21,189 nt of DNA from a virus: IMG/VR virus record IMGVR_UViG_3300020448_000051, positions 1-21,189 of that record; one strand, written 5' to 3'. Below, one piece after another: positions 1 to 19,756 of the stretch (positions are counted from its first letter, which is position 1; every line of letters begins with the position of its first letter). The notes beneath the pieces were generated by a model. That model was given only the letters and a program-made list of their open reading frames with translations. It had not been told where the DNA came from and ran no database searches. The translations under genes and the position numbers were made by a program.

Positions 1-1586
1 AAAATCTTCATAAAGTCATAAGTTCCTGCTATATCCAGAGAACTGTCAAATATCTCGTCAAGTATCAGTAAATTAGTGTTGGCACTGTTTTTCATCTTAG
101 CAATGGTTCTCCATGTGAACAGAAGTGCTAGATCTATCCTCATTTTCTCCCCTTCAGAGAAGGATGCGTAAGAAAATTCGTCTCTAAACCTAGATTTTAT
201 AGTCTCTTCAAAATTTTCATCAAGATCAAATGACACATAGAAATCTAACTCGTTAAGATACTTATTAATCAGTTGATTCATGATCGGAAGGTACTTTTTG
301 ATGATCTGGGACTTGATTCCAGTGTCCTTGAGTAGTGATGAACACACATCATAATTCTCTTTGACCTTCTTAGTTTCCTTGAGTGCTATCTCTCCCCCTA
401 GACCCTCTTTTACCAGTGTTTTTAGGTTATTTTGCTCTCTTTTTAGGTTGTCTGTCTGTGGTGTGTCAATCTCATCTTGTATCTTCTTCATAGATTTTTT
501 CTTCCACCTGATCTCCTTGGTGTCGGATGAAATATTGCTCTGAATGTCCCTAATTTCCTTGATTTTACCCTCTTTTAGTGATACTTGCTCCTTGATCTCT
601 TCAAGCTTCTGTTTAAGATCCACTGTGGCACTTGCAATTTGATTGAGTTGGTCGCTAATTCCCTTTTGATGGGTCTTCTTGCTTCGTTCTGTAATAGTTT
701 GGCTACAAGTTGGGCATCTATCGTTTTCTTCATAAAATTTCATCTCCTTATTAAGTGTTTTCTTTTTGTCATTGAACTTAGACTGGTACACCTTCAGTTC
801 ATTTAACTTAGAGGTCACATCACCTATGGAATCTGCCTCATTTTGGAGCAAATCTACAGTTTCTGCTGACTTTATGATGTTATCCTCTAGCACGTCTACC
901 TCACTCTGTAACGTGTGGATATCCGTACTCTTTGCGTCCCTTTGTTTCTTCTGATTTGCCTTAATATCCTCTATAAATCGCTGTTGTAACTCTACTTTCT
1001 CCTTAATTAGGTCAAGGTCATACGTTGCCTGTGTTATGCTGTCACGTAGTCCTTTTGCTCTTCCTTTGAGGATGTCATTCATGGTAGAAAACACCTTAAT
1101 ATCAAGCAAATCCTCTATAACCTCCCTTCTATTGGGTGCTGTGAGTTGCATGAAAGGTACGAAGGTACTGCTACCTAGTATGACTACCTGTGTGAATGAC
1201 TTATAGTTTAACTTTAGTACAGATTGCTCCAACCAGACCTGTTGATCACGTTGATTTGACTCCTGATTGAGTGCTGTACCGTCTCTAAAAATTTCAAATA
1301 TATTTGGCTTCACTCCTCTGTTCACTTGCCAATGAGTTGACCCTATTTTGAACTCAATAGAGACCAACATCTCCTTTTCATTGACAGCGTTGATCAGTTG
1401 TGCTTGTGATATCTTACGAAAAGGTTTCTTGAACAGGACAAAGCAGATAGCATCGAGCATCGTGCTTTTTCCTGCCCCGTTGGAACCGACGATTAGTGTA
1501 GACGGACTACCTTTCAAGTCAACTTCGCTGAAAACGTTACCTGTTGATAGGAAATTCTTCCAACGAATTTTCTCAAATACGATCAT
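1..1586 (-). CDS. gp46: gp46 recombination nuclease ATPase subunit (Rad50/SbcC-like), 3' end beyond window
   Basis: This is the ATPase subunit of the phage Mre11/Rad50-type complex, which resects DNA ends for recombination-dependent replication. Translation from the ATG at 1586 gives 528 codons before the window edge. The Walker A motif GSNGAGKST is at residues 34-42. A long coiled-coil-like region surrounds a zinc-hook CPTC at residues 291-294 (near 705-716). The ABC signature FSEGEKMR lies near 146-163 and the Walker B LLILDE near 55-72. T4 gp46 is 560 aa, so only about 30-40 residues should be missing. The N-terminal stretch after Walker A (FKKPFRKISQAQLIN) closely parallels T4 gp46. It starts 14 bases after the DUF3110-like gene with no clear Shine-Dalgarno, so expression by read-through from gp47 is likely (inference). 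Confidence 0.96.
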   Translation of the reverse strand, partial: MIVFEKIRWKNFLSTGNVFSEVDLKGSPSTLIVGSNGAGKSTMLDAICFVLFKKPFRKISQAQLINAVNEKEMLVSIEFKIGSTHWQVNRGVKPNIFEIFRDGTALNQESNQRDQQVWLEQSVLKLNYKSFTQVVILGSSTFVPFMQLTAPNRREVIEDLLDIKVFSTMNDILKGRAKGLRDSITQATYDLDLIKEKVELQQRFIEDIKANQKKQRDAKSTDIHTLQSEVDVLEDNIIKSAETVDLLQNEADSIGDVTSKLNELKVYQSKFNDKKKTLNKEMKFYEENDRCPTCSQTITERSKKTHQKGISDQLNQIASATVDLKQKLEEIKEQVSLKEGKIKEIRDIQSNISSDTKEIRWKKKSMKKIQDEIDTPQTDNLKREQNNLKTLVKEGLGGEIALKETKKVKENYDVCSSLLKDTGIKSQIIKKYLPIMNQLINKYLNELDFYVSFDLDENFEETIKSRFRDEFSYASFSEGEKMRIDLALLFTWRTIAKMKNSANTNLLILDEIFDSSLDIAGTYDFMKI

Positions 1587-1600
1587 AATAAATAGACAAA

Positions 1601-1855
1601 TTAAAAATCAGGAGGTATCACTATTTGATCTGGTTCGATCACATAATATGGGTGATTATACTGTTTACAAGTACCAATCGCCTCGTCTGCCGACACTTCT
1701 ACCGCATCAAGTTGTGGGTAATCGTTCGCTTCCAATAAGCCAGCATAGCGTATTGCGTCGTCTTTGTCAACAAACAGGTAAAGTGTCTTTTTACCATCCT
1801 TTTCTGTAGAATAGGCACCCATATTTTCTTTTCCTTTGAGTGCCAAGATAAACAT
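1601..1855 (-). CDS. DUF3110-like small protein between gp47 and gp46
   Basis: This is an 84-aa protein of unknown function. Its pattern resembles the cyanobacterial DUF3110 family: a hydrophobic first strand (MFILAL), a second strand followed by an acidic pair and helix (LYLFVDKDDAIRYAGLLEA), and a C-terminal PPDF. The family match is from memory and was not tested by a search. The ATG overlaps the gp47 stop codon as TAATG, and gp46 begins 14 bases after its stop, so it sits inside the gp47-gp46 operon and is probably translated by coupling. No catalytic motif, signal peptide or membrane segment is visible. A role with the gp46/47 nuclease is only suggested by position. The family resemblance supports a cyanobacterial host. 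Confidence 0.8.
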   Translation of the reverse strand: MFILALKGKENMGAYSTEKDGKKTLYLFVDKDDAIRYAGLLEANDYPQLDAVEVSADEAIGTCKQYNHPYYVIEPDQIVIPPDF

Positions 1856-2889
1856 TAGACCAGCTCCAGTGCTTCGATGTACAGAGATTTTAGAATTGTT
1901 TTAATACCCTCCTTATCATGGTATTCCATGCCATTTACATAGTTATCTAATAATGTGAGAGTATCTTCCTTCTCTATATCTATATCATCAGAGAACTCAG
2001 AGTCGTATGCGGAATCCTCTACCACCTTGATGTCATAGACACCATGTACATAGAGTTGAGAGATGAAATATTCAAACTTAGCAGTGTCTTTTTTGTTCTC
2101 TACTATGACTTTGACCATCCTATCCTTATACTGCCTAGCATCAGGTAGTTTCCTCTCATCATAAAAAATCTTGTCAAAGATTTTATAAGGATTTTCTATG
2201 AATTTCTTCTCTTTTGTGGTCGTATTGTACTCATGGAACCCTCTTTCGTCACCCCAGTCGTTCCAGTATATGTGATAGGGATTACCAAGGTAGTGGCAGT
2301 TACCATGGTGTGACTTAGTGTGGTAGTGACCACTGTATACTTGGTCAAATTTAGCAAAAAGGTTCTTATCTATGCCATGTGTCATGGTAAATCCTTTGTG
2401 TGCTTCAAACCCATTGAGTTCTAGATGACCCATCGCTACAGTAGCAGTGGTATCTTCTATCATTTTATAGGTTTTTTCCTGATTTTCAGCATTTATCCAT
2501 GGTATGAACAGTATTTCTAGGTCACCTATCATCACCTGTGTTGGTTCAGAATATATGTGTACGTTGTCATACTCACCAAGGAAATTATCCAGTGTATTTA
2601 CGCTGTTTGTGTCCTTAAAATAGGCAGTATGGTTCCCCACGAGTGAGTGAACCTCGACCCCCATTTTTTGTAGTCGATTGAAGTAATTATTTCTTGCCCA
2701 ATCTACTGACCAGATGTCTACATTCTTACGATTATCAAATGTATCACCTAAATCTAGCAGTATTTTTATATTATTCTCCTCTAGGTATGGAAAGAATACG
2801 TTGTCATAGAAGTCAAGGAAGTAGTCATGAAAATGTCGACTAGATTTCCTAGCACCGAAGTGCTGATCAGTTATAATTGCTATATTCAA
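1855..2889 (-). CDS. gp47: gp47 recombination nuclease subunit (Mre11/SbcD-like)
   Basis: This is the metallophosphoesterase nuclease partner of gp46, acting on DNA ends in recombination and host DNA degradation. The 344 aa compare with 339 in T4. The phosphoesterase motifs occur in order: D8-x-H10 (TDQHFG), GDTFD at residues 48-52, GNH at 85-87, then GHLELNG and SGHYHT, the metal-binding histidine motifs. The C-terminus has the acidic stretch and final ALY-EA helix seen in T4 gp47. The start is TTG, whose last two bases overlap the gp55 stop (TTGA). No ATG lies in frame nearby upstream, and the first residues (NIAIITDQHFG) are the expected first strand, so TTG is the best start. Its stop overlaps the next gene (TAATG). 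Confidence 0.95.
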   Translation of the reverse strand: MNIAIITDQHFGARKSSRHFHDYFLDFYDNVFFPYLEENNIKILLDLGDTFDNRKNVDIWSVDWARNNYFNRLQKMGVEVHSLVGNHTAYFKDTNSVNTLDNFLGEYDNVHIYSEPTQVMIGDLEILFIPWINAENQEKTYKMIEDTTATVAMGHLELNGFEAHKGFTMTHGIDKNLFAKFDQVYSGHYHTKSHHGNCHYLGNPYHIYWNDWGDERGFHEYNTTTKEKKFIENPYKIFDKIFYDERKLPDARQYKDRMVKVIVENKKDTAKFEYFISQLYVHGVYDIKVVEDSAYDSEFSDDIDIEKEDTLTLLDNYVNGMEYHDKEGIKTILKSLYIEALELV

Positions 2890-3347
2890 TTTGATTTTAC
2901 CTGTACGTTTTCTTTTATGCTGTTCATTGCTGAGTGATCATCGTTACCATCACTATGGAATAGCTGATCATACCCTGATTTTGTTATAATTTTGTTCTTT
3001 ATCTCTAATTGTCTCTTCTCTTTAGAAATCCTACGTAAGAAAGCATAGTATATTATCTGTGTAAAATATGCGAAAGGGTTACTTGACTTGCTTGGATCAA
3101 AGTTTCCTATGTACTGTACACAATTTTCTATACCATCACATATCATGTCCTCTCTGAACATATAGTTGACGAAGTTAGGTTTGTATGACAAGTGCGTTGC
3201 TATCTTAAGAAAACATTCTCCTATGTAATTGTTGATGCGGGGTTTGGGTTCTCCATTTTCCTCAGCAACCTTACATTCTGCCTTGAAATCTACAAGGGCA
3301 AGAAGGAATTCTTTGTTATTAACGTAGTGTTCTGACTTCTTTTTCAT
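2886..3347 (-). CDS. gp55: gp55 late-transcription sigma factor
   Basis: This is the divergent sigma factor that directs host RNA polymerase to T4-type late promoters (TATAAATA-like). At 153 aa it is shorter than T4 gp55 (185 aa). The N-terminal YVNNKE matches T4 YVNNKE. The central MICDGIENCVQYIGNFDPSK and PFAYFTQIIYYAFLRRISKEK parallel the T4 sigma region 2 segment that contacts RNA polymerase and the promoter. After about residue 125 the similarity ends. The protein finishes in a polar tail (IKENVQVKSN) without the T4-type hydrophobic clamp-binding motif. The gene has its own sigma70-type promoter at 3370-3398 and is followed by gp47 with a 4-base overlap. No strong Shine-Dalgarno precedes the ATG. 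Confidence 0.93.
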   Translation of the reverse strand: MKKKSEHYVNNKEFLLALVDFKAECKVAEENGEPKPRINNYIGECFLKIATHLSYKPNFVNYMFREDMICDGIENCVQYIGNFDPSKSSNPFAYFTQIIYYAFLRRISKEKRQLEIKNKIITKSGYDQLFHSDGNDDHSAMNSIKENVQVKSN

Positions 3348-18944: not shown

Positions 18945-19187
18945 TTAACTACTTGTACTATGGGTATTTAGCGAATACCAGTCACGTGCTTCTGACTCTT
19001 TGTCAAAGAACATAGTGACTCCATGATCATATGCTACCCATTTGTCTATTATATAATCCCAGTGAGGTGCTTCTGGATATTCATTATGGTGTGCTGTTAG
19101 ATAATCTTGGTAGAACTCAGGGTTCTCTTTCATATCTTCCTCAAAGTCCAACTGGGCTGTGAGGCGATCCTCTGGTACTTCAGACAT
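18945..19187 (-). CDS. hypothetical acidic 80-aa protein
   Basis: I do not recognise a family. From the ATG at 19187 the product is 80 aa, acidic and rich in aromatic residues (FYQDYLTAHHNEYPEAPHWDYIIDKWVAYDHG), with no membrane segment or signal peptide. The frame extends upstream to a GTG at 19217, but that start would lie on the late promoter itself, so the ATG is preferred. No Shine-Dalgarno is visible. A CTAAATA motif lies 21 bases upstream, overlapping the stop of the oxygenase-like gene. Its 3' end contains the late promoter of the tail fibre gene. Solubility and position suggest a small accessory or virion-associated protein (inference). Confidence 0.75.
   Translation of the reverse strand: MSEVPEDRLTAQLDFEEDMKENPEFYQDYLTAHHNEYPEAPHWDYIIDKWVAYDHGVTMFFDKESEARDWYSLNTHSTSS
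18965..18971 (-). promoter_or_regulatory. late promoter CTAAATA before the tail fibre gene
   Basis: CTAAATA (18971-18965, minus strand) lies inside the last codons of the 80-aa gene (Leu-Asn), 30 bases before the fibre ATG. Confidence 0.6.
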
Positions 19188-19198
19188 GGCGATAATTG

Positions 19199-19217
19199 GT
19201 GCTAATATATTTAGCAC
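19199..19217. repeat. 19-bp inverted repeat around a late promoter
   Basis: GTGCTAA-ATATA-TTAGCAC (minus strand) has perfect 7-base arms and a 5-base centre. It spans the oxygenase-like gene stop codon and the CTAAATA motif. No U run follows, so it is not a typical terminator. Confidence 0.65.
19208..19214 (-). promoter_or_regulatory. late promoter CTAAATA before the 80-aa gene
   Basis: CTAAATA (19214-19208, minus strand) contains the TAA stop of the oxygenase-like gene and lies 21 bases before the ATG at 19187. Confidence 0.6.
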
Positions 19218-19756
19218 ACTTTCCAGAATAAATTTCCTGCTACGGTAATTCTTTCCTTGTCTGTTGAATGATAAGGATATACTGCATGATTAGTTGAGGC
19301 AGGGAACATCAAAACCTGTCCGTTCCATGACTTATCTACATTGATAAGTCTATCTTCCAGTTGGAATCCACCATCACTAGCAAAGTTTTTCCGTTCTTCC
19401 ACACCGTATGGTATGTCTACAAAAATGACAAAACTTACCACACCGTGATGGCAATGGTAAGGATTATATTGACCAGGTTTTTGATAGTTTACCCATAGTT
19501 CGCGGAGTTCCAGATACTTTGGATCAAATTCTCCTGTGTATGGGCATGTCTGAAAAAATGTATGCCAGATATTCTGTGAAGTATGGACGAGATAATCCTC
19601 TAACCCTTCAGTAGGAACGAGAGATGACTGTTGATTCAAAGCACCAACTAATTTGTCATTATAATTCCAGTCTTCGTCCTTCCTCCTTTCTATACAAGCA
19701 TCTTTTAACTTGTTAAAAAGGGAAAGGGGGATATGTTCGTGCCAAACTTTCATCAC
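19211..19756 (-). CDS. 2OG-Fe(II) oxygenase-like protein
   Basis: This 181-aa protein resembles 2-oxoglutarate/Fe(II) dioxygenases common in cyanophages. The block LWVNYQKPGQYNPYHCHHGVVSFVIFVDIP (residues 87-116) holds the first metal-ligand region with H101, H103 and H104. FPASTNHAVYPY (151-162) gives the distal H157, and KERITVAGNLFW has R169, the likely 2-oxoglutarate-binding arginine. The first pair is His-x-His instead of the classical His-x-Asp, so which residues bind iron, and whether it is active, is uncertain. The substrate is unknown: protein, DNA and small molecules are all possible. Two ATG codons stand in a row (19756 and 19753). The start overlaps the preceding 51-aa frame by 44 bases. 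Confidence 0.82.
   Translation of the reverse strand: MMKVWHEHIPLSLFNKLKDACIERRKDEDWNYNDKLVGALNQQSSLVPTEGLEDYLVHTSQNIWHTFFQTCPYTGEFDPKYLELRELWVNYQKPGQYNPYHCHHGVVSFVIFVDIPYGVEERKNFASDGGFQLEDRLINVDKSWNGQVLMFPASTNHAVYPYHSTDKERITVAGNLFWKVC

Follow-up and report, generated by a model that had tools for sequence, protein, structure and literature searches.

Why should a gene for an 84-residue protein lie between the genes for the two subunits of a phage nuclease, and what might its product do there? The question was raised by a virus record of 21,189 nucleotides (IMGVR_UViG_3300020448_000051, analysed over its whole length and referred to here as the window). From its left edge, the window carries a partial gp46, the gene in question, gp47, gp55, a methylamine-utilization-like ORF, UvsW (named from its sequence and from synteny with phage P-HM2), UvsY and the tail tube gene, a gene order that identifies the record as a T4-like cyanophage. 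Marine cyanophages count among the most abundant viruses, and for many of their core genes no function is known.

A DUF3110 gene between gp47 and gp46

The genes around this locus are read from the minus strand. A gp55-like late sigma factor gene (2886..3347, PHROG 234) lies upstream of gp47 in the same gene run. It is followed by gp47 itself (1855..2889), which encodes an Mre11/SbcD-like nuclease subunit of 344 aa with a TTG start (PHROG 100, SbcD-like, E=4.8e-114), then by the small gene (1601..1855, 84 aa, ATG start) and by the gene for the Rad50/SbcC-like subunit gp46 (3..1586), of which the N-terminal 528 codons are present and which is open to the left edge of the window. The first-pass annotation had described the small ORF as joined to gp47 by TAATG and separated from gp46 by 14 bases, and both features could be read directly from the sequence. 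In TAATG (1853..1857, minus strand), the last A of the gp47 TAA stop is the first base of the small gene's ATG, and the 14 bases (1587-1600) after its stop precede the gp46 ATG at 1586. Judging from this arrangement, TAATG is likely a translational coupling site.

The ORF had also been described as DUF3110-like, and a profile search left little room for doubt. The protein matched Pfam DUF3110 (PF11360) with E=2.7e-14 and 53.6 bits against a gathering cut-off of 20.2, with residues 7-83 aligned to positions 8-84 of the 84-position profile. It also matched PHROG 470, a family of unknown function (E=4.7e-22), and the divergent copies from ACG-2014f and S-PM2 likewise exceeded the PF11360 cut-off. 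NCBIfam gave no match to the 84-aa protein. With tblastn, 400 of 50,697 phage records held a relative that spanned 80% or more of the query, which indicates that the ORF is not a chance one; all 400 record names contain Synechococcus, Prochlorococcus, Cyanophage or Marine. A second copy used as query with a looser limit gave 416 records, and the divergent ACG-2014f copy gave 332, among them 45 near-identical to the ACG-2014f copy itself; these are separate listings from which a union is not derivable. The window copy is 81-100% identical to its nearest IMG/VR copies and at most 55% identical to those of named phages.

The gene itself is not new. It belongs to a named orthologue group, T4-GC 142 (PHROG 470 type), whose members occupy the identical position between gp47 and gp46 and differ in nothing essential: the records of P-HM2 and S-PM2 label gp47, the DUF3110 gene and gp46 as T4-GC 141, 142 and 143. 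DUF3110 is already named in the records of S-SRM01, S-SCSM2R, S-CAM8, S-CAM22 and P-TIM40, while the S-SCSM1 record labels its own copy 'Tic22-like family protein' and that of S-CREM1 'import protein'. Our literature search turned up no study of what DUF3110 does. In a 2013 metagenome study, DUF3110 was correlated with the photoreaction-centre domain, a correlation that the authors ascribed to cyanophages (PMC3597751). Sullivan et al. (2010) counted 25 further core genes in cyanophages, of which 16 are hypothetical, and the main text does not name T4-GC 142 (PMC3037559). Both gp46 and gp47 are reported in all cyanomyovirus genomes covered in PMC2984593, and a paper on cyanophage transcription in the field (PMC7238727) makes no mention of these genes. 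What we add are synteny counts in IMG/VR loci selected by gp47, and the observation that all phage copies group together, separate from those of hosts.

The synteny counts come from two scans of IMG/VR in which loci were selected by gp47 alone, never by DUF3110; relatives of gp46 were present in these loci. The first scan gave 65 loci, 58 of which showed both gp47 and gp46. Where gp47 was at least 48% identical to that of the window, DUF3110 lay between the two genes in 28/28 loci. Where gp47 identity was 36-41%, DUF3110 was missing in 30/30 and gp47 abutted gp46, the two overlapping by 4 nt in 28 of these loci. The second scan retained 80 of 596 confirmed loci, at 45-62% identity; both genes were visible in 78, and DUF3110 lay between them in all 78. 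Pooled, the linkage of DUF3110 with gp46-gp47 was conserved in 106/106 loci with both genes visible and a gp47 at least 45% identical (range 45 to 99%), a plain sum of 28 and 78 in which a contig common to both scans could count twice. Among close cyanophage relatives, the gene was thus neither absent nor displaced in the majority, in agreement with the synteny that the first-pass annotation had expected.

The junction with gp47 was similarly stable. The 1-nt overlap of the gp47 stop and the DUF3110 start seen in the window recurred in 45 of 51 distinct loci from earlier sets, with the other six within 2 nt, and in 58 of the 78 loci of the second scan, which bears out the tight coupling to gp47. 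A single locus among these 78 carries a foreign ORF between gp47 and DUF3110 (L340:2692-3231, 2OG-oxygenase-like, named by eye), and even there DUF3110 still adjoins gp46.

DUF3110 does not occur wherever gp46-gp47 does. Besides the 30 distant loci, we observed one exception among named cyanophages: in BUCT-ZZ01 (L192), a Synechococcus elongatus phage labelled Kyanoviridae, gp47 overlaps gp46 with no DUF3110 between them. A search for gp47 itself returned 2440 records, 376 of them named Synechococcus and 61 Cyanophage. The earlier suggestion that the protein could be a third subunit of the nuclease or a regulator of end resection is no more than a candidate reading, and these more distant gp47/gp46 pairs and BUCT-ZZ01 do without the gene.

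The cyanobacterial family and the origin of the phage gene

On the host side, we sampled 292 genomes from all over the phylum to which Prochlorococcus belongs; 138 of them contained DUF3110, and 136 the photoreaction-centre domain Photo_RC. The two lists, compared by eye, have 135 genomes in common; three genomes carry DUF3110 without Photo_RC (G118, G161 and G185) and one carries Photo_RC without DUF3110 (G053). In cyanobacteria, DUF3110 therefore tracks photosynthesis, that is, the oxygenic cyanobacteria, nearly all of which in this sample possess the protein, mostly as a single copy. Among 72,556 plasmid records, the sole hit came from Nostoc, where a plasmid bears a DUF3110 gene (NZ_AP025733.1:252984-253247).

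The host copies carry the same domain as the phage copy, with a profile-profile probability of 99.9%, but they are longer than the 84 aa of the phage protein (127 aa in L080) and adjoin dnaK-dnaJ and/or murQ, our own name for a neighbouring gene encoding a SIS-domain (murQ-like) protein. We examined 76 host neighbourhoods (60, and 16 of a further 20, hand-chosen with weight on small genomes; the duplicate locus L120 was dropped and the fusion loci L114-L116 were left out). The neighbouring products included HSP70, DnaJ together with DnaJ_C, a cyclophilin-type PPIase and the SIS-domain protein. In 36/76, dnaK and dnaJ lay directly upstream on the same strand. A downstream murQ, found in 55/76, was a commoner neighbour than dnaJ; the two occurred together in 25 neighbourhoods, and neither was present in 10. 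The dnaK link is limited to part of the phylum, and murQ is the wider neighbour.

In two host fusion proteins (L115:5748-10490 and L114:2794-6855), DUF3110 is joined to TPR repeats and a CHAT protease domain, in one case with Clp_N in front, and these DUF3110-TPR-CHAT proteins may be protease systems in which DUF3110 serves as the recognition domain. PADLOC gave no match for the two fusion proteins or for the phage DUF3110 protein. One ORF (L117) contains two DUF3110 domains. A J-domain suspected by eye in front of DUF3110 in another locus (L118) gave no DnaJ hit.

An unrooted tree was made by a quick method from 85 columns of 51 phage and 75 host domains. In it, all phage copies lay on one side of a long joining branch with an SH-aLRT of 100. 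The tree fits one transfer without later exchange between phage and host. As to the idea that the phage gene is host-derived, a single origin and the way the family tracks oxygenic cyanobacteria are consistent with it, but an unrooted tree gives no direction. The single-cell genome of Prochlorococcus AG-418-C09 contains a 189-kb contig with a close relative of the window gene (82% identity) along with the host's own DUF3110 gene (L062, L078); the cell was probably infected.

Conservation was compared in 51 phage and 74 host rows, the latter number resulting from the removal of L118. Both sets keep G13, F28, D32, D33, A34, R36, Y/F37, L41, E42, A43 and C63, and share the signature DDAxR[YF]xxxLEA with a later C. 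D33 and R36 are present in 51/51 phage and 74/74 host rows, C63 in 50/51 and 74/74. Host loci L063-L080 had been picked by the peptide DKDDAIRY and are hence biased to it; the exact peptide occurs in none of the 76 host domains of the neighbourhoods, and DKDDA in nine. In phages alone, Y15 and Y70 vary hardly or not at all, with Y70 in 51/51 phage rows, and I14-H15 and Q44-D45-F46 (QDF) are invariant in hosts alone. The residues kept on both sides hint at a common fold constraint, or at a partner that phage and host copies have in common and that is not the phage nuclease; those invariant in phages alone hint at a changed role.

A predicted Tic22-like fold

By sequence, neither the phage nor the host profile found a credible relative of solved structure, the best matches being a bromodomain at E=0.26 and a match at E=0.54, respectively. 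An AlphaFold2 model of the window protein, built from the 51-row alignment, had a pLDDT of 84.1 and a pTM of 0.70, with the start of the protein, MFILALKGKENMGAY, modelled as a strand. Foldseek against the PDB returned nothing at E<=0.001, with TTHA0547 and Tic22 at the top of the list. With VIA-align 2, the model matched Plasmodium Tic22 best (Z 9.2, 2.3 A over 75 residues), followed by 8xks_I (7.8), TTHA0547 (7.4), 8xqw_Q (7.2) and Anabaena Tic22 (6.6), after which scores fell to 4.2, the value of AcrIC9; 8xks_I and 8xqw_Q also carry the name Tic22. When the host protein of Prochlorococcus was modelled (pLDDT 72.6), the same five structures came first, with Z from 8.3 to 6.7 and then 3.6, although the alignment behind this model includes phage rows and the model is not wholly independent of the phage one. 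Both comparisons involve models only, and Z values near 8-9 may arise from a common arrangement without kinship. The phage model also gave weak structural matches with proteins from giant viruses of algae (Tetraselmis virus 1 and Pyramimonas orientalis virus, E 0.15-0.17).

The likeness to Tic22 has clear limits. Tic22 (PF04278) consists of two repeats and about 200 residues or more, whereas the 84-aa phage protein would correspond to one repeat, matched over 73-75 residues at 1.9-2.6 A with an identity of 10-15%. No Tic22 profile appeared among the Pfam matches of the phage protein up to E=10. Comparison by hhalign with a seven-row Tic22 alignment gave 21 and 34% probability, and aligned the C-terminal part, whereas the structural matches involve the N-terminal part. 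Taking into account that this weak match falls on a different part of the protein, we describe the phage protein as having a probable Tic22-like fold, as judged from the model, and not as a member of Tic22. Tic22 is located in the periplasm, thylakoid or intermembrane space; in the phage protein, no signal peptide is evident by eye.

As for function, Tic22 is described in passages of one report as a chaperone with non-polar grooves, with pockets likened to ClpS (PMC3652856), and a chaperone-like activity is reported in another (PMC12895209). ClpS was absent from the fold matches listed for the phage and host models, although a likeness to it may nonetheless exist.

Possible roles of the phage protein

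Our tentative reading, to which we assign a probability of roughly 0.4, is that the phage protein is a cytosolic client-binding protein of Tic22 fold, captured once, which is made in step with gp46 and gp47 and helps them to fold or assemble. The T4-like marine cyanophages would have inherited DUF3110 from a forebear that acquired it once, most likely from a cyanobacterium, and the captured gene would have lodged between gp47 and gp46, to be translated in step with both from then on. Its product, small, cytosolic and folded like a single Tic22 repeat, would bind an exposed peptide of its partner, as Tic22 does through its grooves. It would accompany newly made gp46 and gp47 and aid their folding, assembly or solubility in the cyanobacterial cell, perhaps by way of the host DnaK-DnaJ system, beside which the host gene lies. 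Given the reports on Tic22 as a chaperone, the coupling to gp47 and gp46 and the host contexts with dnaK-dnaJ and with Clp_N, the explanation that seems to us most economical is a helper that binds the nuclease as its client and is translated along with it. The near-universal placement, the predicted chaperone-type fold and the dnaK-dnaJ setting in hosts would thereby give a neglected core gene a role that can be tested, and a role for the phage protein would provide the first lead on host DUF3110.

Under a stronger version, which we regard as unlikely, DUF3110 would be a cytosolic, client-binding module of Tic22 type in the protein quality control of cyanobacteria, arranged as dnaK-dnaJ-DUF3110 in one branch and as Clp_N-DUF3110-CHAT in another, captured once by cyanophages and now an obligatory, co-translated third component of the phage Mre11-Rad50-like nuclease; if true, a host chaperone family would have been turned into a DNA-repair subunit. 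Several observations weigh against the helper reading itself. No fusion of DUF3110 to gp47 or gp46 was present in the IMG/VR loci scanned. In a comparison of evolutionary distances, DUF3110 tracked gp46 (partial r 0.33-0.47) but not gp47 (about 0), and non-partner pairs, gp47-gp55 and gp46-uvsW, mostly scored higher, so that the comparison does not single out a partner. The residues common to phage and host copies, the greater frequency of murQ than of dnaJ beside the host gene, the gp47-gp46 pairs that lack DUF3110 and the weak Tic22 profile match also count against it.

The features shared with the host family could also be explained if the phage protein, during takeover of the host, acted on the DnaK/DnaJ or Clp machinery or together with it, with its slot setting only dose and timing and gp46/gp47 not being its partners. 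The position of the host gene after dnaK-dnaJ in 36 neighbourhoods, the Clp_N- and CHAT-fused proteins, the signature common to host and phage copies and the predicted fold all agree with this; yet an independent gene should sometimes move, and DUF3110 stays in place in every one of the 106 loci, while the dnaK link covers a smaller part of the phylum than murQ. We therefore rate such a host-directed factor as somewhat doubtful. The protein might instead restrain or redirect the nuclease, for example by sparing phage ends or tuning the degradation of the host genome, and not assist its folding. The obligate coupling to gp47, the placement before gp46 and the phage-specific Y70 speak for such control, but neither the fold nor the host context points to it, and the Tic22 relatives are described, in the passages cited above, as chaperones (PMC3652856, PMC12895209). 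A regulator of this kind appears very improbable.

The gp47-gp46 slot of other phages raises the question of whether DUF3110 is a passenger that entered a permissive site once and owes its persistence to a benefit that is weak or unrelated. In T4, the slot holds the small overlapping ORFs 46.1 (DUF5487) and 46.2 (T4_Y03C), the same position as DUF3110 but different families. Unrelated small ORFs fill the slot also in Edwardsiella phage PEi20 and Campylobacter phage F367 (with T4, loci L061, L268 and L269), whereas it is empty in Vibrio phage K452, Dickeya phage XF4 and Stenotrophomonas phage Yut3. Accessory genes may thus settle repeatedly in this slot, and gp46/gp47 function elsewhere without DUF3110. 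Common ancestry of DUF3110 with the T4 46.1/46.2, PEi20 and F367 proteins was rejected: scores were at most 2.5 bits and below the top of 1000 shuffles in each case, and Pfam assigns the T4 and PEi20 slot proteins to DUF5487 and T4_Y03C. A passenger is difficult to reconcile with the lack of any loss or move in the 106 loci over a gp47 identity of 45 to 99%, with the strict conservation of D33, R36 and Y70 in all 51 phage rows, and with the constancy of DUF3110 where the slot ORFs of other phages vary from phage to phage. We consider it improbable, and retain the nuclease helper as the preferred reading.

Elsewhere in the window, at 18945-19217, a 90-aa ORF without a PHROG match lies beside a 2OG-Fe(II) oxygenase-like gene (19211-19756).
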